Origin: an uncultured Desulfobacterium sp.
Lineage (GTDB): Bacteria > Desulfobacterota > DSM-4660 > Desulfatiglandales > Desulfatiglandaceae
Assembly: GCA_900258555.1 (NCBI GenBank)
Contig: LT984854.1
Span: 916,409-978,232 of the forward strand
Length of the DNA: 61,824 bases
Direction of reading: 5' to 3'
Shown here piece by piece: positions 38,375 to 55,602 of the stretch. Position 1 is the stretch's first letter, and each line of letters opens with the position of its first letter. A model generated the notes under the pieces. It was given only the letters and a program-made list of their open reading frames with translations, had not been told where the DNA came from and did not search any database. The position numbers and the translations under genes were made by a program.

Positions 38375-39196
38375 TCAAAAGGCATCCTTAAGCATATCTA
38401 CTAGTCTATTTCTGGCTTCATTCAATAGCGATGGGGGCTGGGGCCATTGTTCCATGATGATAGCGCCGGAAAAACCGCGTTTTTCAAGGCGCTCCAGGAG
38501 CCCTGCTATCCCGGATGGGTCTTTTCCCGCAGGGCCTGTAAATATGGTCAGATGGCTGTCACGGTCGCCGTAGTTTTCATGCACGTGGAGATGTATTATC
38601 GGGACCTGCGGACCTAGAATATCTACATACCCTAAATAGTCATTCAGGGTTTCTTTACATAGATTGGCGTGACCCAGATCAAGACACATACCCACGCAAG
38701 ATGTATCTAGCTCAGTATTGCGCAGGTGTTCAAACAGGATGTTAAAGGCGGCTGGGCCTGTAGCAGGCACATTTTCTATGGAAAGTCTTATCGCGTTTGC
38801 TGACAAGAGTTCTATAAGGTGGCTTATCGCCTGAACGAAGGCCTGGGCCCCTTCATCAGCAAAGAAATGTATGTTTACAAGGCATGCGCCGATATCCAGG
38901 GCAAATTCGGCATTTCTTAAGATGGTATCATAACTTTCCTTCTTTAATGGGTTTGCCGTCCATGGCAGATGAACCGACAGGGCGATGTCATGGTCATTGG
39001 CGATCTTTTTGATCAATGCACGGGTCTTTTTACCTAAATCCCCCTCTGTCCACCCGGCCCCGCTGACCTTAAGATCAGGGAACCACTCAAAGGCATCAAA
39101 GCTATTTACTACAGCATATCTGAATGGCTCGCTGATGCTTACAGTTGAAAAAAAAGTCTGATTGCCGATACGGATGCGCCCTTTTTTAATCACCAT
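38375..39196 (-). CDS. Sugar phosphate isomerase/epimerase-like TIM-barrel protein
   Basis: A 273-residue protein of the xylose isomerase-like/AP endonuclease 2 superfamily. Metal-site motifs in order: LSVHLPWTAN (His), LVNIHFFAD (His), LSIENVPATG (Glu), VGMCLDLGHANL (Asp, His), IIHLHVHENYG (His) and IIMEQWPQ (Glu). It overlaps the end of the glucan water dikinase gene by 11 bases, so translation is coupled. The substrate is unknown. In this operon it could act on a sugar released from the glucan, but relatives also include endonucleases and lyases. Confidence 0.82.
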   Translation of the reverse strand: MVIKKGRIRIGNQTFFSTVSISEPFRYAVVNSFDAFEWFPDLKVSGAGWTEGDLGKKTRALIKKIANDHDIALSVHLPWTANPLKKESYDTILRNAEFALDIGACLVNIHFFADEGAQAFVQAISHLIELLSANAIRLSIENVPATGPAAFNILFEHLRNTELDTSCVGMCLDLGHANLCKETLNDYLGYVDILGPQVPIIHLHVHENYGDRDSHLTIFTGPAGKDPSGIAGLLERLEKRGFSGAIIMEQWPQPPSLLNEARNRLVDMLKDAF

Positions 39197-42100
39197 TAAT
39201 TCCCACCTGAGGTCGTGTCTGGACTACATAATATCTGTCATTGGAGTAAACACCCTCTATATCCTGAGGATAGCCAAATAGTTTCTCTACCATTACGCCT
39301 ATGGCCGCAACCTTTATACAGAATTCCCTTTGAAATTCTTCATCCCACACAAGAGGCTCTTTGGAGTAATCAAGCACTGCTTGCGTTGGGGCCTGTAACA
39401 TAACGCTGTCGTAAAGGCCTGCGCCGGCGTAATCAACAAGATCCTCTCCATTTGAATCAGAACGGAAGATCAACCCGTTGCCGAAGAGGCCGATGCTCTT
39501 GCTGGGAAATGCATGAAGGTGAGGCGTTTTCTTGCCTTTTTTCATGGAAAAGCTGAAAGCCCTTCCAGGGTAATTTCCCACCAGCGTCTCCCCAAGTCCT
39601 GGGACAGCCTCAGCATAGATCTCATCCCGGTCCGAAGTAAATGGGTTTATGGTGTGAATCACAAAACTGTAATCCGCTTCAATAACCTCCTGGATGAGGA
39701 CCGACATAAAAAGATCACGATGCAGGATGCCCTGTGCCCTGCGGCTTAAAAAGGCCCGCTCATTCCATTTTGAGCCCCAGACCTTCTTGATGCATTCCCA
39801 TGCGCCGGCCCAGTTTTCGATGATCAGTCCCGCATCTTCATTCACCCTCTGGAGTGACGACCTTAAGGCGTCAGGGGCCTTGAGGCCGAGGATGACGGCC
39901 TTTAAATCCCCCAGGAGTCCACAGACGGAATCTACTGCCGTATCATCAGCCTTTTTTGTCAGATGATCATACTGCCTGGCCGCCTCCTCGTTTATTTTTT
40001 CATAGAGCACCTGTTCAAAGACGCCGAATGGCATGGCTACAGAAATTGGCAGGCCTATCCACCCGGGCAGGATTACCCTGAGCCGTTTTAAATGATTGGC
40101 TTTTCCACCCACCGTCCTATCGCTAAAATCCCTCTCCGAAATGGCATAGGAAGAAAACTCGGGCCTGGATGCCAGGATGCGGACAGGCCGGATTTTTGGC
40201 GATGTCTTTTTTGCATCTTGCTCACCCTTCTTGACCTCGACCTCACCTGCGGCGTTTACAGTCAGCCCGATCACCTGCCCTCTTAAGGACCTTAAATGTT
40301 CCAGTGTATCTGTGTCATAGCATGTGGCGATCAGTACCTGGGCGTTTCTGGCGCGAATGGCCACATGAGATACGATGTCGGTGGTGTCAGGGGTGATGAT
40401 GGCGGTTACACCCTGGGGTATTTCCTCATTGCCGACGATCTTGTCGGTAATGATGATTGTCGGCCTGACAAAGCTCTTATATTTAATGGATTCAAGGCTT
40501 GAGGCCTCTTCCACCTGTCCCATGCCCTTTCCCTGGCTGACTACCTGCCAATTGCCCAGGACCGCACTCTTTCTGAGTATCGGGTTTAGGTGCCGCAACA
40601 GCATCACCAGAACAAACGCGGGCCTGCCGCGCACCACCTCTTCAGTGAAAAGCGTAATGGTCCATGAATCCGCGTTAAATGCCTTTCCCATCAATTCCGC
40701 CTTTGGCTGGAGCAGCTTATAATATTGATCAATAGTGCCGTTTACCATCCGTCCAAGGCGTTCGAGCACAGACTGGGCCTTAAGCGCCCGGTGTTGGTCA
40801 AATTTAGGCTTGTCCCCCAAAAGCCTCCACTGAATACGGCACTGGTTAAGCTCTACATCGTCATCAGTGAGGGCCATATTGTCCATCATCACAGCTATCA
40901 GCCTCGCCAACCGGTTTCCCTCCCATTTGAAATGGAGGGACCTTTCCACTGCCACCCGCAGATAATCCTCCAGCGCCAGGTCCAGAAATAGCATGTCCCG
41001 CACCCCGTCCCTGTGTCCTTTGAGCCAAAGTGCAACTTGCCTGCGGCCCTCTGTAATCCAGCCCAACAGGGAAAATAGACCATCAGGCCCGGAATCCTTG
41101 TTCGACCATATATAGTCCATTAAAGTGTGCATATCATTGTCAAACAGATATCTTGCCGCCTGGATGGCAGCACCAAGATCAGTCCCTGAATGCACCCCTT
41201 TTAACACCCCCAAAAAGTCCCCGAAATCGTGGATAAGGGCATCCTTCAAATGAGGAATAAAATCCGGTTGAGACCTGATAGGTCTATCATAGCCTGTTAG
41301 ACGCTCCCTGGTGACCCCGCCTTCGGCAAGCCTCTTATAAAAAAGGTCCATATTTCCATCGCTTCTTAAAAAGGCCAGATAAGCTTCACAGATCACCACA
41401 TCATCCGGGGTAGTATTATTATGCAGCTTCTGGTGCCACTCTTCCATAAAATGGCCGGAGACCTCTTTGATGTGGTGGCGGTGCATGATATTCAAGATCT
41501 CGTCACGCACCCGCTGTCCTTCCCCACCCCTGCCAAGGTTGGTAAGAATCAGACGTACATGGTGGCGCGCCGGGGGATAATCCATATAAAGGTCTGAGAA
41601 TTTATTTGTTAAACGATCCAGTGCATGGCTCAGTTCCCTTGGCTGGGTGTTGTAGTTTCTCTGCCAGTCCAACTGCCTTATGGCGGAATAACGTAGCCAG
41701 ACGTAGACAAGGGAAAGACCGTCCGGGTCATCTCTTATGTCATCCAACAGGTCATAACAAAGATTGAACCTATGCATCAGTGTCCATGAATGGACCCCCG
41801 TCTCCCTTTCAACAATCCTTTTAAAGATGTCATCAAGATCAATATGCCTCGTAGGCAATTGTCCTGTTGTTGATGAAGACCTTGAAGGGATTTCAATCAG
41901 ATAGTCCTGACCGTGGTTATTGTCCCAAAGGTTGTCATCCGGGAAAAAGAGGACAAAGCCTATAAGAGGAAACCGTAGATTATCATTGAGCTTCAGGAGG
42001 ACCTCTGCCTTGCCGTCTTTCTCAAGAAATGGGCTCTGAAGGGCCTTATCGCCAAAGGGCCTGCTTTGCTCCGGCCACAGGGATTTATCAGGGATAACCC

Positions 42101-42251
42101 AGGATCGTTCACCCCGGTGTCGAAATCCCCAATGAAAAATGACCTTGCGTTGGGCATCCGTACTGATAATGACCTCAACGCCGGTTTCGGTAATCTGTTT
42201 ATTAACAAGGAGCATGAGGCCGCTTCTTGTGAGAATATTTTCAGTAGTCAT
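39186..42251 (-). CDS. Alpha-glucan water dikinase (plant GWD-like) with CBM45-like domain
   Basis: A 1,021-residue dikinase that would transfer the beta-phosphate of ATP to glucosyl units of an alpha-glucan, releasing the gamma-phosphate to water. The N-terminus (about 10-125) looks like one CBM45 starch-binding module: VIFHWGFRHRGE, WVIPDKSLWPE, IGFVLFFPDDNLWDNNHG. The middle has MEEWHQKLHNNTTPDDVVIC, ERLTGYDRPIRSQPDF and HSGTDLGAAI, all hallmarks of plant GWD. The catalytic histidine is about His629 in DTTDIVSHVAIRARN. The C-terminal ATP-binding domain has FRSDSNGEDLVDYAGAGLYD and ends VVQTRPQ. Plant GWD is longer, with two CBM45 domains. PEP synthase and pyruvate phosphate dikinase are excluded by domain order and by the GWD-specific middle. 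It overlaps GH57 by one base. Confidence 0.93.
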   Translation of the reverse strand: MTTENILTRSGLMLLVNKQITETGVEVIISTDAQRKVIFHWGFRHRGERSWVIPDKSLWPEQSRPFGDKALQSPFLEKDGKAEVLLKLNDNLRFPLIGFVLFFPDDNLWDNNHGQDYLIEIPSRSSSTTGQLPTRHIDLDDIFKRIVERETGVHSWTLMHRFNLCYDLLDDIRDDPDGLSLVYVWLRYSAIRQLDWQRNYNTQPRELSHALDRLTNKFSDLYMDYPPARHHVRLILTNLGRGGEGQRVRDEILNIMHRHHIKEVSGHFMEEWHQKLHNNTTPDDVVICEAYLAFLRSDGNMDLFYKRLAEGGVTRERLTGYDRPIRSQPDFIPHLKDALIHDFGDFLGVLKGVHSGTDLGAAIQAARYLFDNDMHTLMDYIWSNKDSGPDGLFSLLGWITEGRRQVALWLKGHRDGVRDMLFLDLALEDYLRVAVERSLHFKWEGNRLARLIAVMMDNMALTDDDVELNQCRIQWRLLGDKPKFDQHRALKAQSVLERLGRMVNGTIDQYYKLLQPKAELMGKAFNADSWTITLFTEEVVRGRPAFVLVMLLRHLNPILRKSAVLGNWQVVSQGKGMGQVEEASSLESIKYKSFVRPTIIITDKIVGNEEIPQGVTAIITPDTTDIVSHVAIRARNAQVLIATCYDTDTLEHLRSLRGQVIGLTVNAAGEVEVKKGEQDAKKTSPKIRPVRILASRPEFSSYAISERDFSDRTVGGKANHLKRLRVILPGWIGLPISVAMPFGVFEQVLYEKINEEAARQYDHLTKKADDTAVDSVCGLLGDLKAVILGLKAPDALRSSLQRVNEDAGLIIENWAGAWECIKKVWGSKWNERAFLSRRAQGILHRDLFMSVLIQEVIEADYSFVIHTINPFTSDRDEIYAEAVPGLGETLVGNYPGRAFSFSMKKGKKTPHLHAFPSKSIGLFGNGLIFRSDSNGEDLVDYAGAGLYDSVMLQAPTQAVLDYSKEPLVWDEEFQREFCIKVAAIGVMVEKLFGYPQDIEGVYSNDRYYVVQTRPQVGINGD

Positions 42252-43471
42252 TAATGGAGTGCGTGGCCCTGTGTTCTTTCAGAGATCATATTTACAGCAG
42301 TGTCCAGCATTGTATAGGCCTTTTCCAGATCATCAAAGGCCCTGTGGACCCAACTGCTTCCCCAGAAAAAGTTGCAGCTCGTCTCCGCCACCAGCAGATG
42401 GTCATAGCCCTTAATGATCATCTGACGCACCTCTTCGGGGTTACCCAGGTGATGATAGTGTTCGTCAAACAGCCTCTTGGCCTTGTGGTAATAAGAGCTG
42501 CAGTTATGCAATTCTTCCAGGCCCCTTTTCTGGAGCAGAGACCCGGTCCACTGGGTAAAATCGCCGCCCCAGTGATGCCCGGTATTCCAGGCGCCCTGGT
42601 AGACTTCCACTTCATCACACGGCGGGTGCATTTCAATAAAGTTGCTGATATGGATGGGCGTAAACCCAAGGGTTCCTTCCCTGTAACGGTTTAGGATCTG
42701 ATGAAAAAAATGGCCCCAGAAGCTGCTTTGAATGTTGATGTTGCGGAACCATCCGCCGTTTTCTCCATCAGTCCATGTGGTCACAAGCGCCGGAAAATCA
42801 CAGAACTTTGTCCTTTCGTAGATCTCATGTTGAAACCACCCTGGGTCGAGTCCTGACTGCTGGGCGCTGGAAAGCTCACGGTCTCGCGGGATGACGATAA
42901 TTTCTTCTCCCCCGTAACGGGCGAAATGGGGCCTGTAGCGTAGCTCTTCCCAGCGCATCTCGTGTTTGGGCTTGATATACCAGCAGTCAACCATTACATA
43001 CTTGTAGCCGTGGCGTTTCAGGACCGGAATCATCTCCATGGAAAACCCCATCTCAGGGGGCCAAAAGCCATAAAAGCTGTTTCTTCCAAGCATGTATCTT
43101 CCAAGGCCCAGCCACCATGATGTCTGGGTATCCCAATCCGTCTCAGGGATCAGGGGATACACACTGTGATAAAGGCCTGAGCCCAGAAATTCGATATTGG
43201 ATCTCTTGTAGCTATTGAGCATATCCTCTACATCTATCACATCATGAAAGGTCTCCCTTATCGCAGGGTCTTCGAATTGCTTTAACAAGGTGCCGGAAAA
43301 ACTGATATGGAGTCTCGCAATGTCTTCGTATCCCTCCAGCATCCTTACAGGGCGATCATAACACCATAGGATCTGCCTTGCCTCCCACCTTTCATTGGAA
43401 TTGTGCAGGGCGAGAAGATTGCCGAGCGGCTGATGCATGTTCAACCCGAGTGCATGATAGACCTGGCGCAT
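42251..43471 (-). CDS. Glycoside hydrolase family 57 protein
   Basis: A 406-residue GH57 enzyme (amylase, 4-alpha-glucanotransferase or branching type). The conserved regions are visible: HQPLG (13-17), GSGLYHSVYP (97-106), YGFWPPEMGF with the nucleophile Glu140, and TTWTDGENGG with the acid/base Asp233. It is shorter than most branching enzymes (about 520 or more) and lacks C-terminal starch-binding parts, so hydrolysis or transfer on alpha-1,4-glucans is likelier. Its stop overlaps the dikinase start (TAATG), and a GT4 synthase-like gene precedes it. Cytoplasmic: no signal peptide. Confidence 0.92.
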   Translation of the reverse strand: MRQVYHALGLNMHQPLGNLLALHNSNERWEARQILWCYDRPVRMLEGYEDIARLHISFSGTLLKQFEDPAIRETFHDVIDVEDMLNSYKRSNIEFLGSGLYHSVYPLIPETDWDTQTSWWLGLGRYMLGRNSFYGFWPPEMGFSMEMIPVLKRHGYKYVMVDCWYIKPKHEMRWEELRYRPHFARYGGEEIIVIPRDRELSSAQQSGLDPGWFQHEIYERTKFCDFPALVTTWTDGENGGWFRNINIQSSFWGHFFHQILNRYREGTLGFTPIHISNFIEMHPPCDEVEVYQGAWNTGHHWGGDFTQWTGSLLQKRGLEELHNCSSYYHKAKRLFDEHYHHLGNPEEVRQMIIKGYDHLLVAETSCNFFWGSSWVHRAFDDLEKAYTMLDTAVNMISERTQGHALH

Positions 43472-43495
43472 TATTAACCTCCTTAAGAATAAATA

Positions 43496-43602
43496 ACGAA
43501 TTGTTAATTTTAAATGTTGAATTTTGAATTACTATTGGATTATTTCCTTCATTTAAAATTAAAAATTCACAACTCAAAATTTGGATCTTGGCCTGACGTA
43601 GA
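43496..43602. repeat. AT-rich palindromic dispersed repeat, copy B
   Basis: 107 bases matching 24866-24972, from ACGAATTGTTAATTTT to CTGACGTAGA. Copies A and B sit 20-25 bases upstream of a start codon, between two minus-strand genes. This copy separates the GT4 and GH57 genes and could fold as a hairpin in their shared message. Confidence 0.75.
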
Positions 43603-43634
43603 GGTTGATCAAAACAGCCTTTTTCGTTCAGTCA

Positions 43635-44792
43635 CTACCCCCACAAGACGGAGAGCATCCTGTCTCCGATCACATCCCAATTAAAGGATTCTTCAACAGC
43701 GGCACGTCCGTTTCTGCCCATCCACCTGCCCCACTCAAAGTCCGTAAATAGGGTGCCCAGCCCCCAGGCAGCGGACTCCGGGGTTGGGTGGATCTTTAAT
43801 CCGTTTACTTCGTGCCAGAGATACTCGTTTGGACCTCCGTTTACTGTGGCTACGACCGGTTTTCCCGCGCTCCAGCCTTCGAGCACTACTATGCCGAACG
43901 GCTCATTACGGCTCGGCACGCATACAACGTCGCAGGACTTGTAAAGATCGACCAGTTCCCAGCCGCATTTAAACCCCACAAACCTTGTTGCATGAGAGAC
44001 ATTGAGTCTGTGTGCGCGATCTTCCACAGAAAACCGCATCTCACCGTCTCCGGCAAAGACAAATTTGGCAGTCGGATAATATTTGAGGATATAGGGGATG
44101 GCCTCCACCAGGAGATCAGGGCCCTTTTGATACACCATCCGGCCGACAAAAAGGACCATCGGATCCATAGGGCCGACCCAGTACCGGTCCCTCACTACAG
44201 CCGGATCAAGCCATCCGTCCCAGTGATGTACGTTCACGCCGTTGAATACAACAGATATTTTCCATTCGGGCACCTCGTACATCCACATGATCTCGTTTTT
44301 TAAGGACTGCGACACACTAATTACATGATCAGCCCAGTAGGCTCCGGACCGCTCATGCTCCCTGATGCGGGCGGATCTGCCCTGGTGAAAGACGTTTCCG
44401 CACCGGCCATATTCTGTCGAATGCATGGTGAGGACGGTCTTCCTGCCACGACCCTGTTTGATCCATATCATTGCAATGGCGGTGAGCCAGTCGTGGGCGT
44501 GGACCACATCAAAGGGACCGATATAGTCTTCGGTCTGATAAAAATGGGCCACAATGGAGCGGCACATGTTTAGGATCTCTTCGGCAAAGTCCGGGTGGAG
44601 GTCAAAGGGGCACCTGTGATAGTGGACCCCGTCTATCCAGTCGTATTGACCCTGACCGCGCCCCATACGGGTAAAGACATGGACCTCATGTCCCTTCCTC
44701 TCTAACGCCGCGGCCAGTTCAGTGACGTGAACTCCCACACCCCCGACCGGAATCGAATGAAGGGTCTCCCAAGACAGCAGTGCGATTCTCAT
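43635..44792 (-). CDS. GT4 glycosyltransferase, glycogen synthase-like
   Basis: A 385-residue retaining GT-B enzyme. The N-domain has SIPVGGVGVHVTELAAALER (the glycine-rich acceptor loop), DVVHAHDWLTAIAMIWIKQG and LTMHSTEYGRCGN. The C-domain has VLFVGRMVYQKGPDLLVEAI and RNEPFGIVVLEGWSAGKPVV (the EX7E motif). It resembles GT4/GT5 enzymes that make alpha-1,4-glucans from nucleotide-glucose or maltose-1-phosphate, but a different hexosyl donor cannot be excluded. It is the first gene of the operon with GH57, glucan water dikinase and the isomerase-like gene, which supports an alpha-glucan role. The SD is ACGGAGG. Confidence 0.88.
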   Translation of the reverse strand: MRIALLSWETLHSIPVGGVGVHVTELAAALERKGHEVHVFTRMGRGQGQYDWIDGVHYHRCPFDLHPDFAEEILNMCRSIVAHFYQTEDYIGPFDVVHAHDWLTAIAMIWIKQGRGRKTVLTMHSTEYGRCGNVFHQGRSARIREHERSGAYWADHVISVSQSLKNEIMWMYEVPEWKISVVFNGVNVHHWDGWLDPAVVRDRYWVGPMDPMVLFVGRMVYQKGPDLLVEAIPYILKYYPTAKFVFAGDGEMRFSVEDRAHRLNVSHATRFVGFKCGWELVDLYKSCDVVCVPSRNEPFGIVVLEGWSAGKPVVATVNGGPNEYLWHEVNGLKIHPTPESAAWGLGTLFTDFEWGRWMGRNGRAAVEESFNWDVIGDRMLSVLWG

Positions 44793-48220: not shown

Positions 48221-51200
48221 ATGCATGATTCAACCACTTCGGGAATCAAGGATAATTATTTGCATGGTTCGGCCGGTGATTTTGTTTTAAAATCAATCGT
48301 TCCCGAGTCAAAGTTATCGTTTGTTTCTGCCTACTTTACAATACATGCCTTTGAGGCGTTGCGTGCCGAACTGGAATCAATCCATTCGCTCCGCTTTCTT
48401 TTCGGAGAACCTCGTTTTGTTCGCAATCTCGATCACGAAAATAAACAGTCCCGTCGTTATAACCTTACTGAGAAAGGTCTCTTTCTTGGCAACCAGCTAT
48501 CCCAGCGTCGGTTGGCAAAAGACTGCGCCGATTGGATTCGCCGTAAGGTCGAAATCCGTTCAATTACGCGAACCTCTTTTCTACACGGAAAACTCTATCA
48601 CATACAGGATGGGAATGTCGCACACGCCATGGTGGGTAGCTCCAATTTTACCGTACCTGGTCTGGGACTTCATCCAAACGGCAACAATATTGAACTCAAC
48701 CTTGTTGTGACAGACGATCGGGATCGCACGGCCCTTCTTTCCTGGTTCAACAATCTATGGAACGATACTGAGCTGGTGGAGGATGTCAAGGATACTGTCA
48801 TAAAGGAACTGGGCCGGCTATATGAAAACCAATCCCCCCAGTTTATCTACTACCTGACTCTTTTTAATATCTTCAGGGAGTTTCTGGACGGGACCCGCGA
48901 CATAGATGAATCCTTGCGCCGGACGGCGATTCCTGATACTCGCATATGGCAGACCCTTTTTTCATTTCAAAAAGATGGCGCCAAGGCAGCGATCAACAAG
49001 ATTTTGGCCTGCAATGGATGCATACTGGCCGACAGCGTCGGCCTCGGAAAAACATATACCGCCCTGGCGGTGATCAAGTTTTTTGAACTGCGTAACGAAC
49101 GGGTTTTGGTGCTCTGCCCGAAAAAACTGCGGCGTAACTGGACGGTATTTCGCGCAAACAGCTCTCTTAACCCATTCCTGGCCGATCGTTTTCGGTATGA
49201 TGTACTGTCACATACAGATCTTTCCCGCGACCGGGGTGATGTTGACGGCATTGACCTCGCTTCCCTCAACTGGGGGAATTACGATCTGGTGGTCATTGAC
49301 GAATCCCACAACTTCCGCAACAACTCCTTGGCCCGTCAGCGTCCCGGCGAAAAGCCCAGACAAAGCCGTTACCAGCGACTGATCTCAGACATTATTACCT
49401 CCGGCGTTAACACTAAGGTCCTCTTGCTCTCGGCCACACCGGTCAATAACCAACTGGCCGATCTCCGAAACCAGATTTCTTTTATAGCAGGTGGTGACGT
49501 GGCCAGGGATGACCGAGCCGACGCTGCTTTCGGAGAATCCCTTGGTATTGAATCCGTGCGGGAGACCAGCCGCAAGGCCCAGACTAACTTCACCAATTGG
49601 GCAAAAAAACCCGCAGGGGAGCGGAAGACCCGCGATCTGCTTTCTGCCCTTGGCGGAGATTTTTTTAAGCTCCTCGACGGACTAAGCATCGCTCGCTCCC
49701 GCAGCCAGATCGCAAGCTACTACAAGGAAGAAATGAGAAGACTTGGGGGATTCCCCCGCCGGACAACCCCGCGATCACTGCACCCTCCCATAGATCTGCA
49801 ACAGCACTTCCTATCTTTTGAACAACTCGATCATGAGATCAGCGAACTCAATCTTGCCCTTTACCATCCTACGGCCAGACTTAGAGAAGACCTCCCCCAA
49901 GAGATACGGACCATGTATCTGGACACGATACTGGGCGGGTTCACCCAGGAAGGCCGCGAACGAATCCTGATCGCCATGATGAAGGTCAACCTTCTCAAGA
50001 GGCTCGAAAGTTCTGTAGACTCCTTCCGCCTGACCCTCCAGCGGACCATCGAAAAAATAGATCGCCTGAAAGAGCGAATCCTTGCCTTTGAAAAGCATGT
50101 AGACGAGAATCCGGAAATTGACTACGACATCTTGACCCCGGATCAATTTGAAGACCCTGATTTTGACACTGAAGAGTTCACTATCGGCGGGAAACGTCGC
50201 ATTCATCTGGGCCATCTCAAACTGCCAGAGTGGTTAAAAGAGGTGAGACAGGACCGGGTCCAGCTCCAGTTTCTCCTGGAAAAGACTTCAGCAGTAAAGC
50301 CTGACCGTGATGGCAAACTTGCTGAGCTGCGCACACTCATTGGAAGGAAGGTGAAAGACCCATCCGTTAACCGCGACGGCAAGACCAACCGCAAAGTTTT
50401 GGTCTTTACCGCCTTTGCCGACACAGCCCGTTACTTATATGACCAGTTGGATCTGTGGGCGCAGACTCACCTTAATATCCACACGGCCCTCATACTGGGT
50501 GACGGCAGCAATCGAACCTCCCTGGGAAATGCCGACTATGATGACATCCTGACCAATTTTTCGCCACTGTCCAAGTCACGGTCGGCCCAGCCCCGATTCC
50601 CACAGACAGAGGAGATAGACCTTCTGATCGCTACGGACTGCATCTCCGAAGGCCAGAATCTCCAGGACTGCGACCTGCTGATCAATTACGACATCCACTG
50701 GAACCCCGTCAGGATCATCCAGCGCTTCGGCCGTATAGATCGGATCGGTTCCCGAAACAGCGAGGTCCATCTGGTCAATTTTTGGCCCGTGGCGGATCTT
50801 GACCGCTATCTGAACGTCAAACACCGCGTTGAGGCCCGTATGGCCCTGGTGGACCTGTCGGCCACCCAGACCGACAATCTGCTCAACCCGGGGCAGCTTA
50901 AGGAGCTAATAAAAGAAGACCTCCTCTTTCGGAACCGGCAGTTAAGGCGGCTCAAAAATGAGGTCCTCGATCTGGAGGATTTTGATGACGCTGTTTCACT
51001 TACCGACTTTTCCCTTGACGAATTCCGTCTGGACCTGCTGCAATTCATTGAATCCCGGCGGGCTGAGCTCGAAGAGGCAGGCAGAGGCCTCTATGCAGTT
51101 GTCCAGCCGAGGGCGGATATCCCCGCCTGCCGTCCGGGGGCAATCTTCTGCCTGCGTTTCGGCAAAGATACGGGTATTCAAAAGGACCAGGGCGGAAATG

Positions 51201-51595
51201 AGGCTCAACCAACTGATTCCGCAAAAATCAATCCCCTGTCCCCCTATTATCTGGTCTATGTCCATGATGACGGGACAGTGCGTTTCTCATTCGCCCAGCC
51301 AAAGGAGTCTCTCCTCCTGATGCGAGGCATTGCAGCCGGTGAGACCGCCCCGTTGATCCAGCTATGCGATCTTTTTGATGCCGCCACCAAAGAGGGCTCC
51401 GATATGAGCCACTACAATAGTCTGATTCAGAAGGCCCTGGCATCCATTCAACATACCTTCCGCCGCCGCGCGGCCGCCGCGCTCCTCTCAGGACGCGGGG
51501 GAATGTTGCCGACCGCTGCCGAAACCCCTGCCCAGGATCAAGGGGATTTTGAGCTGATCACCTGGCTGGTGATTATGCAGCCGAAACAGGAATAA
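48221..51595 (+). CDS. PLD-SNF2 helicase, defence-like
   Basis: A 1,124-residue protein fusing a phospholipase D-like nuclease domain to a superfamily 2 helicase. The HKD-type motif HGKLYHIQD (122-130) with GSSNFT (139-144) lies in the N-terminal domain (about 10-200). Helicase motifs: Walker A ADSVGLGKT (270-278), DESH (360-363), SAT (404-406), then the C-terminal domain with ATDCISEGQNLQDCD and IQRFGRIDRIGS (about 836-847). A helical insert with coiled-coil character lies at about 520-640. Such proteins occur with DNA methyltransferases in phage defence. It is the first of three tightly spaced genes; the next starts five bases after its stop. Confidence 0.92.
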   Translation: MHDSTTSGIKDNYLHGSAGDFVLKSIVPESKLSFVSAYFTIHAFEALRAELESIHSLRFLFGEPRFVRNLDHENKQSRRYNLTEKGLFLGNQLSQRRLAKDCADWIRRKVEIRSITRTSFLHGKLYHIQDGNVAHAMVGSSNFTVPGLGLHPNGNNIELNLVVTDDRDRTALLSWFNNLWNDTELVEDVKDTVIKELGRLYENQSPQFIYYLTLFNIFREFLDGTRDIDESLRRTAIPDTRIWQTLFSFQKDGAKAAINKILACNGCILADSVGLGKTYTALAVIKFFELRNERVLVLCPKKLRRNWTVFRANSSLNPFLADRFRYDVLSHTDLSRDRGDVDGIDLASLNWGNYDLVVIDESHNFRNNSLARQRPGEKPRQSRYQRLISDIITSGVNTKVLLLSATPVNNQLADLRNQISFIAGGDVARDDRADAAFGESLGIESVRETSRKAQTNFTNWAKKPAGERKTRDLLSALGGDFFKLLDGLSIARSRSQIASYYKEEMRRLGGFPRRTTPRSLHPPIDLQQHFLSFEQLDHEISELNLALYHPTARLREDLPQEIRTMYLDTILGGFTQEGRERILIAMMKVNLLKRLESSVDSFRLTLQRTIEKIDRLKERILAFEKHVDENPEIDYDILTPDQFEDPDFDTEEFTIGGKRRIHLGHLKLPEWLKEVRQDRVQLQFLLEKTSAVKPDRDGKLAELRTLIGRKVKDPSVNRDGKTNRKVLVFTAFADTARYLYDQLDLWAQTHLNIHTALILGDGSNRTSLGNADYDDILTNFSPLSKSRSAQPRFPQTEEIDLLIATDCISEGQNLQDCDLLINYDIHWNPVRIIQRFGRIDRIGSRNSEVHLVNFWPVADLDRYLNVKHRVEARMALVDLSATQTDNLLNPGQLKELIKEDLLFRNRQLRRLKNEVLDLEDFDDAVSLTDFSLDEFRLDLLQFIESRRAELEEAGRGLYAVVQPRADIPACRPGAIFCLRFGKDTGIQKDQGGNEAQPTDSAKINPLSPYYLVYVHDDGTVRFSFAQPKESLLLMRGIAAGETAPLIQLCDLFDAATKEGSDMSHYNSLIQKALASIQHTFRRRAAAALLSGRGGMLPTAAETPAQDQGDFELITWLVIMQPKQE

Positions 51596-51600
51596 AACCG

Positions 51601-54600
51601 ATGCCTCCTTCCAATGATATACTCTTTAAAAAAAATATCCAATCGGCCATCAATGACTTTGCCGGATTGCCGTTACCAATCGCAGCCCGCAACCTTTTAC
51701 GGGTGCTGGGCTATGCCAGTCAGCGGGACGAAAATATCCTGAATATCGTTACGCCGGATGATTTCCTGAAATGGCTTGAAGGCGCCAATCAGGACAAGGC
51801 ACTGTCCGCCAGAGATCAGGATGAACTTCAAGGTCACCTGGAAAAACTCCATTTCATATTTCAGATTACCGAGGCCGAGATCAAGGCGGCCCTAGGTCCT
51901 GTCCAGGCGAATCTTTTCGATTCCGGAACAACAGTCGAGGGCTCGCGCATGGAAAGCTATCTGTTCTTCGCTGCCGCGCTGAAACCGGATGCGCCGGAAA
52001 CCCGATCCACCCTTGCCAGGCTTGTGCGTCTGATCAACAAGCCTCTTCCCATGCCTGCCATTATCCTCTTCAGACATGGCGGCGCCTTGACCCTCGGTGT
52101 CGTCAACCGAAGGCTGCATAAGCGCGCACCTGATCGTGATGTCCTGGAAAAGGTCACTCTGATCAAGGATATCTCCATCACAGAGCCGAACCGGGCACAG
52201 GTTGAGATACTCCATGATCTGAAGTTATCAACACTTTCCCAGAAATACCAGGTAGATAATTTTGTCCGCCTACACGACGCCTGGCGCAAGACCCTTGACA
52301 TCTCGCTACTCAACAGAAAGTTCTACAAAGAGTTGTTCAACTGGTATCTCTTTGCCGTCAAGACCGTACAGTTTCCCAATCCGGACAAGTTACCGGACGA
52401 TGTCAACAACTCCATTAATGTCATCCGGTTGCTGACCCGCCTGATATTCTGCTGGTTCATCAAGGAAAAGGGGCTTATTCCAGAGGTGCTGTTCAATGAG
52501 CGCAAGGTAAAGGAGTCTCTTCTCGGCCAGACATCAGGTGACGGGTCGGGCTATTACAAGGCCATCCTTCAGAACCTTTTTTTTGCCACCCTTAATACGG
52601 AAATGAACCGAGACAACCCGGGCAGCAGGCGTTTTATCACCGAACGAAAAAACCCGAACGGCGTCAATCCCGATTACAACAACTTTACGGTCTATCGGCA
52701 CCGGCGCTTTTTTAAAGACCCGAACGCCGCGCTACACCTCTTCGAGAATATCCCCTTTCTTAACGGCGGGCTCTTCGAATGCCTCGACACTGTTGAAACA
52801 GGCAATGGAAGAAACCGGGAGATCCGCTATGACGGTTTTTCTTCGACCCCATCCAAACAGCCGGTGGTCCCGGACCACCTTTTTTTCGGTAAAGTGGAGG
52901 ATGTTGACCTGAGCAGCGCATATAACGGCAAGACCGGGGGCCATGAGACCGTTATAGGTCTGATAGATATTCTGAATGGCTATAAGTTCACTATCATGGA
53001 AAACACCCCCCTTGAAGAGGAGGTGGCCCTCGACCCGGAGCTTCTCGGCAAGGTCTTTGAAAACCTTCTGGCCAGCTACAATCCGGAGACCCGCAGCACA
53101 GCCCGTAACCGGACCGGCAGTTTCTACACGCCGCGCGAGATCGTGAACTATATTGTGGATGAATCTCTGAAGGGGTATCTGGAAGGAAAATTGGCTAATG
53201 TTAAAGGAACCAATGCCGTTGCCGGAAAACAAAGGCAGGCGACGGAGTTATCTATACAGGAAAGGCTATCATTTCTCTTCTCCCATGAACAGACAGGCAA
53301 TCCCTTTTCGCCGGAGGAAACCGATTCACTGATAACCGCCCTGAGCAGTGTGCGCATACTCGATCCGGCCTGTGGTTCCGGCGCCTTTCCCATGGGGATG
53401 CTCCACCGGATGGTGCATATCCTCGGAAAGCTCGACCCCAACAGCCGGAAGTGGAAACAGGCCCAGATCGACATCGTCGAGCAGGACCGGCAGAAGGCCC
53501 TGGAGATGCGGGATGAGGCAATCCGGGAAGGGGCCATCCGGAGTGTCGAAGAGCGCAAGGCATATATCGAGGCGTCGTTTGAAAGCAGCCACCATGAGTT
53601 GGATTACCTGCGCAAGCTTTTTTTGATCGAAAACTGCATCTACGGCGTGGATATCCAGAATATTGCCGTCCAGATCGCCAAGCTCCGCTTTTTCATCTCT
53701 CTGATCGTGGAACAGAAGCAGGACGATGCAAAAGCCAATCTGGGGATACTGGCCATGCCGAACCTGGAGACCAAGTTCGTTGCCGCCGATACCCTGATCG
53801 GACTTGAAAAACCGACGCAGCAAAGCTTTGGCGCGGATGTTGTGGAACGGGCCGAGTTCGAACTCAGGCAGGTGCGGGAGAGAATCTTCTATGCCCGCAA
53901 ATACAAGGACAAAAAGGAACTCAGGAAACAGGAAAAGATTAAGCGTGAGGAGCTGGAAAGGGCACTGAAACAAAGCGGGTGGGAGGAGTCTACGGCTGTG
54001 AAGGTAGCGGCCTGGAACCCCTTTGACGTCTCTGGCTCTGCGCCATTCTTCGATCCGGAGATGATGTTCGGCATCACAACACTCCCTCCGCAAACTCAGG
54101 GCTCTCAATTGCCCTCTCCCTTTGGGAGGACGCAGGGTGAGGGTGTTTTCGACATTGTCATCGGAAACCCACCATACATCCAGATCCAGAGTTTCAGCGG
54201 CAGACCGGAGCAAAAGGCATGGGAGAGCCAGAAATACGTCACATACGCCAGGACCGGGGATGTGTACTGTCTTTTCTACGAACGGGGATTCAATCTCCTG
54301 GCCCCCGGGGGTATTTTGGCCTACATCTCGTCCAATAAATGGATGCGTGCGAATTACGGCAAGGCAATGAGAAGATTCTTCCTGCAGAACGGTCGAATTG
54401 ATCGCTTGATCGATTTCGGCGATTCACGGATTTTTGAAAGCACCACAACATATACGAATATCCTTGTATGGCGCAAAGAAAAGACTCGTCGAATTCCCCG
54501 TGTTTGGGATCTTAGCACGGCATTCGACACTGATGTTTCAATGGAAGAACTGCTTGAAAGAGAAGGGGTCTGTGAACCCCTTTTCAACGAGAATTCGTTC

Positions 54601-55602
54601 GTTGTCACTAAGGGGCCGCAGACTTTTATAAAGCAGCGCGTAGAAAAGGCTGGTGTTCCACTCAAGGGGTGGGACATTGCTATCAATTACGGTATAAAAA
54701 CTGGTCTAAACGCGGCTTTTATTATTAGCGAAAAGAAGAAAAAGGAACTGATCGCGCAGGATCCGAAGAGTGAAGAGATCATCAAACCGGTTCTGCGGGG
54801 ACGGGATATCAAGCGCTATAGAGCGGAGTTCGCTGATCTTTGGATTATTGCTACATTTCCTGCTCTACAGATTGACATCAATCGGTATCCTGCTGTAAGG
54901 GACTACCTGAAAAGCTTTGGGAAACAACTGGAGCAAACCGGAGAGCCGGGGTGCCGCAAGAAGACAAACAATAAATGGTTTGAGGTCCAGGATACCATTG
55001 CATATCACACTGAATTCATAAAAGAAAAAATAGTGTTTGCTGAAATAGTCTTCAACTCTGCTTTTTTCTATGACACAAATTTTTACTATCCGGAGGCAAC
55101 CTCATTTATTATGACTGGGGAGCGCCTGAAATTTCTCACTGCCCTTCTGAACTCAAATCTTCTCACATATTCTTTTCGCACTTTTTATGCTGGTGGTGAT
55201 TTGCGTGGCGAAACCTTCCGTTATAAAAAATTATTTTTGGAAAACCTCCCCGTTCCAAAACTCTCCCTGGCAGATCAACTCCCCTATGAAGTCCTTTTGG
55301 ATTGCATCCAATTCGCCCATGAAAAGGGGCTTACATCCGAGGCATCCACACTGGAATGGGTGATCAATGTCATGGTTTACGGCCTTTATTTTGCCGATGA
55401 GATGAAAAAAGATCACTGTTATATCAACGACCGCGTTGCTGGGGTGGTCAAGCCCTTCAAACCGGGAGATACCGATTCATTCAAAGCCGAATATGTCAAA
55501 TCCCTCGCGCTGTTTTGTCTCAAGGATAAAATTATCTATCATGGTCTGGTGCACAGCCGGAATGTGGAACCGGTCCGGATCATTCATGGGGAGAAAAAAT
55601 GA
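51601..55602 (+). CDS. Eco57I-like adenine-specific DNA methyltransferase
   Basis: A 1,333-residue protein of the Type IIG/Eco57I class. The N-terminal 490 residues have no nuclease motif that I can defend. GSFYTPREIVNYIVDESL (SAM-binding motif X) is followed by DPACGSG (motif I, about 587-593) and the catalytic NPPY (about 856-859). The C-terminal part (about 1,010-1,250) resembles a TaqI-like target recognition domain (LKGWDIAINYGIKTGLNAAF; ALLNSNLLTY). It likely makes N6-methyladenine. Near residues 835-850 an in-frame palindromic intergenic-type repeat is inserted just before NPPY. It overlaps the ATPase gene by four bases. Confidence 0.93.
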   Translation: MPPSNDILFKKNIQSAINDFAGLPLPIAARNLLRVLGYASQRDENILNIVTPDDFLKWLEGANQDKALSARDQDELQGHLEKLHFIFQITEAEIKAALGPVQANLFDSGTTVEGSRMESYLFFAAALKPDAPETRSTLARLVRLINKPLPMPAIILFRHGGALTLGVVNRRLHKRAPDRDVLEKVTLIKDISITEPNRAQVEILHDLKLSTLSQKYQVDNFVRLHDAWRKTLDISLLNRKFYKELFNWYLFAVKTVQFPNPDKLPDDVNNSINVIRLLTRLIFCWFIKEKGLIPEVLFNERKVKESLLGQTSGDGSGYYKAILQNLFFATLNTEMNRDNPGSRRFITERKNPNGVNPDYNNFTVYRHRRFFKDPNAALHLFENIPFLNGGLFECLDTVETGNGRNREIRYDGFSSTPSKQPVVPDHLFFGKVEDVDLSSAYNGKTGGHETVIGLIDILNGYKFTIMENTPLEEEVALDPELLGKVFENLLASYNPETRSTARNRTGSFYTPREIVNYIVDESLKGYLEGKLANVKGTNAVAGKQRQATELSIQERLSFLFSHEQTGNPFSPEETDSLITALSSVRILDPACGSGAFPMGMLHRMVHILGKLDPNSRKWKQAQIDIVEQDRQKALEMRDEAIREGAIRSVEERKAYIEASFESSHHELDYLRKLFLIENCIYGVDIQNIAVQIAKLRFFISLIVEQKQDDAKANLGILAMPNLETKFVAADTLIGLEKPTQQSFGADVVERAEFELRQVRERIFYARKYKDKKELRKQEKIKREELERALKQSGWEESTAVKVAAWNPFDVSGSAPFFDPEMMFGITTLPPQTQGSQLPSPFGRTQGEGVFDIVIGNPPYIQIQSFSGRPEQKAWESQKYVTYARTGDVYCLFYERGFNLLAPGGILAYISSNKWMRANYGKAMRRFFLQNGRIDRLIDFGDSRIFESTTTYTNILVWRKEKTRRIPRVWDLSTAFDTDVSMEELLEREGVCEPLFNENSFVVTKGPQTFIKQRVEKAGVPLKGWDIAINYGIKTGLNAAFIISEKKKKELIAQDPKSEEIIKPVLRGRDIKRYRAEFADLWIIATFPALQIDINRYPAVRDYLKSFGKQLEQTGEPGCRKKTNNKWFEVQDTIAYHTEFIKEKIVFAEIVFNSAFFYDTNFYYPEATSFIMTGERLKFLTALLNSNLLTYSFRTFYAGGDLRGETFRYKKLFLENLPVPKLSLADQLPYEVLLDCIQFAHEKGLTSEASTLEWVINVMVYGLYFADEMKKDHCYINDRVAGVVKPFKPGDTDSFKAEYVKSLALFCLKDKIIYHGLVHSRNVEPVRIIHGEKK
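54112..54143 (+). repeat. Palindromic repeat inserted in frame in the methyltransferase
   Basis: CCCTCTCCCTTTGGGAGGA followed by CGCAGGGTGAGGG is the well-known intergenic palindrome type, here read in frame as PSPFGRTQGEG immediately before the IVIGNPPY motif. It adds about a dozen residues to a surface loop without breaking the gene. Confidence 0.75.

Follow-up and report, generated by a model that had tools for sequence, protein, structure and literature searches.

A bacterial plant-type alpha-glucan water dikinase encoded next to a candidate phosphoglucan phosphoesterase in an uncultured Desulfobacterium

The DNA examined here (hereafter the window) is a stretch of 61,824 nt from an uncultured Desulfobacterium sp. 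(contig LT984854.1), and all coordinates refer to window positions. It includes a run of four genes, all on the minus strand, one of which encodes an alpha-glucan water dikinase (GWD) of the plant type. The run opens with a gene for a glycogen-synthase-like GT4 glycosyltransferase (385 aa, positions 43635-44792), which lies 163 bp upstream of a gene for a GH57 family protein (406 aa, 42251-43471). The GH57 open reading frame (ORF) ends in ...CATTAATG..., and its TAA stop codon overlaps the ATG start codon of the GWD gene (1,021 aa, 39186-42251) in the sequence TAATG. Directly downstream, and overlapping the 3' end of the GWD gene by 11 nt, is a co-directional gene (38375-39196) for a 273-aa TIM barrel protein of the endonuclease-IV/CbiR type, a candidate phosphoglucan phosphoesterase. 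An earlier account made from the letters alone (the sequence-only reading) had described a 1,021-residue ORF that overlaps a GH57 gene and follows a GT4 gene, and the ORF coordinates bear this out. Contamination with plant or algal DNA is unlikely because the GWD gene overlaps the GH57 gene, is preceded by the GT4 gene and lies inside a large contig; it was ruled out given that this 2.63-Mb contig is bacterial, that genes resembling thrS-infC-rplT-pheST adjoin the run and that the GWD gene is a single uninterrupted ORF. The gap between the GT4 and GH57 genes (43472-43634) includes an AT-rich inverted repeat of 19 nt with 95% complementarity (43498-43516 and 43550-43568), which resembles a small repeat element.

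The Pfam search of the GWD protein returned Ig_N_GWD1 (PF23166, residues 7-120, 69 bits), GWD1_pHisD (PF22973, residues 567-677, 111 bits) and PPDK_N (PF01326, 84 bits over two stretches, the best at residues 817-892), in this order, and neither a further family nor the pyruvate-binding PEP-utilizers C-terminal domain. Residues 140-563 (40563-41834), for which there is no Pfam model, match the central helical glucan domain of the solved plant chloroplast GWD (9ha9/9qvi; E = 3e-85 with 9ha9). The phosphohistidine domain (40221-40553) carries the catalytic His629 (DIVSHVAIRARN), which is invariant in 81 of 81 bacterial homologues and the counterpart of which is essential in potato GWD (PMC12892837). 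In the C-terminal ATP-binding domain (residues about 699-1017, 39201-40157), R930 and E936 are invariant in 80/80 homologues that cover them and E999, Q1011 and R1013 in 79/79; D937 is invariant as well. An AlphaFold model of the protein has a mean pLDDT of 88; in structure searches its ATP domain matched that of rifampin phosphotransferase (Z 26.5) and its phosphohistidine domain resembled the N-domain of Enzyme I (Z 8), and the hits for the 1,021-aa model did not include the plant GWD structure. As judged by family, domain order and catalytic residues, the window protein is a true bacterial GWD of the plant type, and the plant GWD signature segments and catalytic His that the sequence-only reading had pointed out are indeed present.

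The N-terminal module that had been likened to CBM45 was also recovered. It corresponds to residues 7-120 (41892-42233), scores well above the PF23166 cut-off of 27 bits, and has counterparts to the five aromatic residues of potato CBM45-1. Potato residues W129, W139, F184, W194 and F202 are represented in the window GWD by W41, W51, F99, W109 and Y117, the last F being replaced by Y, with spacings of 10/48/10/8 as compared with 10/45/10/8 in potato. A relaxed form of this aromatic pattern is present in 77/81 bacterial GWD N-termini versus ~4% of shuffled N-termini. The equivalence of PF23166 and CBM45 is an inference. The best fold matches for the beta-sandwich at residues 1-124 of the model were the N-terminal domains of the plant starch isoamylases ISA2 and ISA1 (Z 13.6).

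The window GWD thus shares with plant and algal GWD1 (EC 2.7.9.4) the order CBM45, central helical domain, phosphohistidine domain and ATP domain. Central domains of bacterial GWDs are 32-43% identical to that of plant GWD, and the catalytic His and the CBM45 aromatics are likewise held in common. The window protein differs from plant GWD1 in having one CBM45-like module, although tandem modules as in plants occur in 29/81 bacterial GWDs, and in being encoded in a run with GT4, GH57 and TIM barrel genes. In place of the redox pair of plant GWD (CFATC) it has IATC, with one Cys left, and plant-type thioredoxin control is therefore not expected; red algae, most chlorophytes and many grasses likewise lack a conserved CFATC motif (PMC7569903).

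The protein encoded downstream of the GWD matches AP_endonuc_2 (PF01261, 69 bits), and its AlphaFold model has a pLDDT of 93. Its metal ligands (H76, H110, E141, D173, H176, H202/204/206, D213, H215 and E249) are invariant in 50/50 homologues and are the equivalents of His69, His109, Glu145, Asp179, His182, His216, Asp229, His231 and Glu261 of endonuclease IV. Profile alignments with Mycobacterium tuberculosis endonuclease IV and with MJ1311 superpose the ligand motifs, the last Glu in the MJ1311 alignment only. The AP_endonuc_2 superfamily is characterised by metal dependence and includes the phosphodiesterase CbiR (PMC7733943). The TIM barrel protein has the fold and the full set of metal ligands in common with CbiR and endonuclease IV but differs from them in its linkage to GWD instead of cobamide genes and in motifs of its own (GNQT, HENYGDxDSH and EQWP). 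Among named families CbiR is the nearest to it. It is not CbiR proper, as it scored 49.1 bits against the CbiR equivalog model of NCBIfam (cut-off 105) and its gene context is that of a GWD. With nine ligands in an AP_endonuc_2 TIM barrel, it is probably a metal-dependent phosphoesterase of the endonuclease-IV/CbiR type.

The association with GWD was assessed in 72 GWD relatives with enough downstream sequence and in 53 loci for the upstream genes. A TIM barrel gene directly follows the GWD gene in 47/72 loci from several phyla, while GH57 genes of the window type lie upstream in only 3/53 and GT4 genes in 2/53. Across the 395 genomes of the phylum, matches to a TIM profile (E <= 1e-30) were found in exactly the three genomes that encode a GWD. 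The TIM barrel gene is therefore the more constant partner of GWD. The glucan operon with GT4 and GH57 put forward in the sequence-only reading stands as an adjacency and falls as a characteristic partnership, and GT4 and GH57 were rejected as defining partners given that they are rarely adjacent to GWD and that some genomes of the phylum have GH57 of the window type but no detected GWD. The same reading had noted that no glucan phosphatase was visible. This holds for the SEX4/laforin type, for which a search of the genome gave one protein resembling dual-specificity phosphatases over the cut-off (193 aa, outside the window, too short to include a CBM as well), one weak match and none in the operon, but not for phosphatases in general, as the candidate TIM barrel phosphoesterase lies directly downstream. 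SEX4, LSF2 and laforin are Cys-based dual-specificity phosphatases, so that the TIM barrel protein, with another fold and chemistry, would have only the proposed role of phosphoglucan dephosphorylation in common with them.

In 24 of the related loci the TIM barrel is fused, at the N-terminus, to a second GWD-type dikinase with PF22973 and PPDK_N, and in two further loci the second dikinase is separate and follows. It keeps the invariant catalytic His and the ATP-site residues. A fragment of plant PWD matched the second dikinase at 36-42% and the GWDs at about 22-30%, a comparison that serves as a lead and not as a test. Plant PWD/GWD3 (EC 2.7.9.5) has CBM20, whereas the second dikinase, for which no CBM20 match was found, has the TIM barrel in that place. 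A search of the window genome for a second GWD-type dikinase found none, PF22973 having a single match.

Apart from the three of 395 phylum genomes with a GWD, a fourth, sub-threshold match proved to be an ordinary PPDK-like protein. When 84,980 species genomes were scanned, 119 relatives were found. The best 80 of these 119, mostly metagenome assemblies, are from records named Desulfobacterales, Deltaproteobacteria, Nitrospirae, Nitrospinota, Verrucomicrobia, Planctomycetes (anammox genera), Acidobacteria, Myxococcales and Chromatiales. The closest relative, from Desulfobacteraceae bacterium UBA5623, is 75% identical and has the same four-gene order. Carriage by viruses or plasmids was rejected, as no relative turned up among the viral contigs scanned and a plasmid scan gave partial matches to the ATP domain only. 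In a tree of central domains that included one plant sequence, a split with 100/100 support placed plant GWD on the side of the bacterial GWDs and the second dikinase type on the other, in agreement with the plant-type assignment made in the sequence-only reading. The placement of this one plant sequence relative to the bacteria had a p-AU of 0.47 and does not settle the direction of transfer between bacteria and eukaryotes. Bacterial GWD homologues are included in one published tree, the legend of which states that they were possibly acquired by lateral transfer (PMC6260743).

The GT4 protein has Pfam domains Glycos_transf_1/Glyco_transf_4 and the motif EPFGIVVLE, scores 147 bits against the NCBIfam model glgA_Coryne (cut-off 302), and has GlgA and maltose-1-phosphate synthase as its homologues in the PDB. 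The GH57 protein (Pfam GH57, 63 bits) matches 4-alpha-glucanotransferase 1k1w with E = 1e-8, and its motifs GFWPPE at residue 135 and TWTDGE at 232 are read as the nucleophile and acid/base regions; it is probably an alpha-glucan transferase or hydrolase. An alpha-glucan is likely to be present as substrate because the genome encodes a glycogen synthase GlgA (in locus L101, away from the GWD locus), two full glycogen phosphorylases as well as CBM48 proteins. Other families recur near GWD genes of other phyla: GH13 debranching proteins of the hDGE type at 27 loci, a GT4 cluster at 17 loci that includes plain GT4s and has a representative bearing DUF4912, and GH57 branching enzymes at 13 loci, with a representative fused to a GT5 synthase. 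These labels come from Pfam runs on cluster representatives only. The GH57 branching enzyme-GT5 starch synthase fusion is a 1,034-aa protein near an acidobacterial GWD (locus L040, 5051-8155), with relatives in 13 GWD loci. The hDGE-type GH13 protein (781 aa; locus L027, 16463-18808, with relatives in 26 further loci) is encoded downstream of a TIM-dikinase fusion, and in L027 its N-terminal part has a weak AP_endonuc_2-like match under the Pfam cut-off.

From these data a scheme can be drawn in which the GWD would bind an intracellular alpha-1,4-glucan, either glycogen or a starch-like polymer, via its CBM45-like module and transfer the beta-phosphate of ATP by way of His629 to glucosyl residues, with the gamma-phosphate released to water. 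The TIM barrel protein would then hydrolyse the glucan phosphoester, so that the locus would encode both the writing and the erasing of glucan phosphate, and the synthesis and remodelling of the glucan would in this lineage fall to GT4 and GH57. That the GWD phosphorylates an intracellular alpha-glucan appears quite likely. Given the homology to GWD and the gene context, the prediction of a glucan as the substrate is a strong one, and that of glucosyl C6 as the target a weak one.

Two other roles for the dikinase were considered. The best NCBIfam matches of the protein are models of phosphoenolpyruvate (PEP) synthase and rifampin phosphotransferase (Rph), as would be expected of an enzyme of that kind with a chance resemblance to GWD, and an annotation pipeline could well apply the former name, wrongly, as the sequence-only reading had foreseen. 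However, the best stretch of these matches lies in the ATP domain, and scores against all of these models are far under cut-off (for PEP synthase and PPDK at most 67 bits versus at least 598). Together with the GWD-type domain order, the lack of a pyruvate-binding domain and the match of the central domain to plant GWD, this rules out PEP synthase or PPDK, again as that reading had held, and makes a chance resemblance extremely improbable. The dikinase might otherwise act not on glycogen but on a non-storage glycan made by GT4 and GH57, such as an exported or lipid-linked alpha-glucan, and it is true that the GT4 protein is no standard GlgA, scoring under the glycogen synthase cut-offs, and that a standard GlgA is encoded elsewhere in the genome. 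CBM45-type aromatics and a plant-like central domain point instead to a branched alpha-glucan, as do the families of debranching enzymes, branching enzymes and GT5 synthases that other phyla have close to GWD, and a non-storage substrate is considered improbable.

For the TIM barrel protein, a function as phosphoester hydrolase is favoured because of its metal ligands, its fusion to a dikinase and its co-occurrence with GWD, and it may well remove or otherwise process glucan phosphate, a role to which we give a little less than an even chance. Several points weigh against it. Endonuclease IV and CbiR cleave phosphodiesters, whereas the products of GWD are monoesters. In 25/72 loci, many of them from Nitrospirota, no TIM barrel gene lies directly downstream of GWD, and the protein must therefore be dispensable or encoded elsewhere in these. 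The Fisher test for co-occurrence in the phylum (p 1e-7) ignores kinship, and two of the three GWD genomes belong to one genus. Structure searches with Foldseek and VIA-align rank ketose 3-epimerases alongside endonuclease IV, and fold by itself thus does not tell a phosphoesterase from an epimerase. As the superfamily includes many epimerases, the protein could instead be a sugar or sugar phosphate isomerase/epimerase that acts on breakdown products, with the GWD as described above. Yet endonuclease IV typically has extra His ligands and a D-x-H pair, both of which are invariant here, and 31/31 homologues tested matched the CbiR model as compared with nine for the endonuclease IV model and one for the epimerase model. 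Fusion to a dikinase that presumably acts on a polymer would also fit a polymer-phosphate substrate better, and an epimerase is regarded as rather unlikely.

A complete phosphoglucan cycle acting on the storage polymer of diverse bacteria can be envisaged, with GWD and the PWD-like enzyme as writers, an endonuclease-IV-type eraser that would be the first non-Cys glucan phosphatase, eraser and writer sometimes in one polypeptide, and a GWD/PWD split that either preceded plastids in bacteria or came about there independently of them. This full scheme is put forward tentatively, as a possibility that we hold to be doubtful in its entirety. The data suggest that certain bacteria both add phosphate to the sugar polymer that they store and take it off again. 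In the literature consulted, mostly without subscription papers, no account was found of the operon, of the phosphoesterase partner or of the TIM-dikinase fusion. The bacterial GWD and PWD-like enzymes offer compact, non-plastidial material for structural work, which a 2026 review describes as still missing (PMC12892837), and are possible tools for making phosphorylated starch.

The window genome has a large set of dikinase-type proteins, with about nine that include PPDK_N. A further protein of 1,404 aa (locus L105, 10112-14326) has a long N-terminal part of an unfamiliar kind and, after it, a PPDK-type ATP domain; GlgA and a response-regulator histidine kinase are encoded in the same run, and a GAPDH-like gene follows. 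Elsewhere in the window, on the plus strand (48221-55602), a gene for an HKD/PLD-Snf2 helicase is directly followed by one for a type IIG-like restriction-methylase. These two genes probably form a defence pair, with PADLOC matches to C3a139 (8e-125) and REase_MTase_IIG (2e-132).

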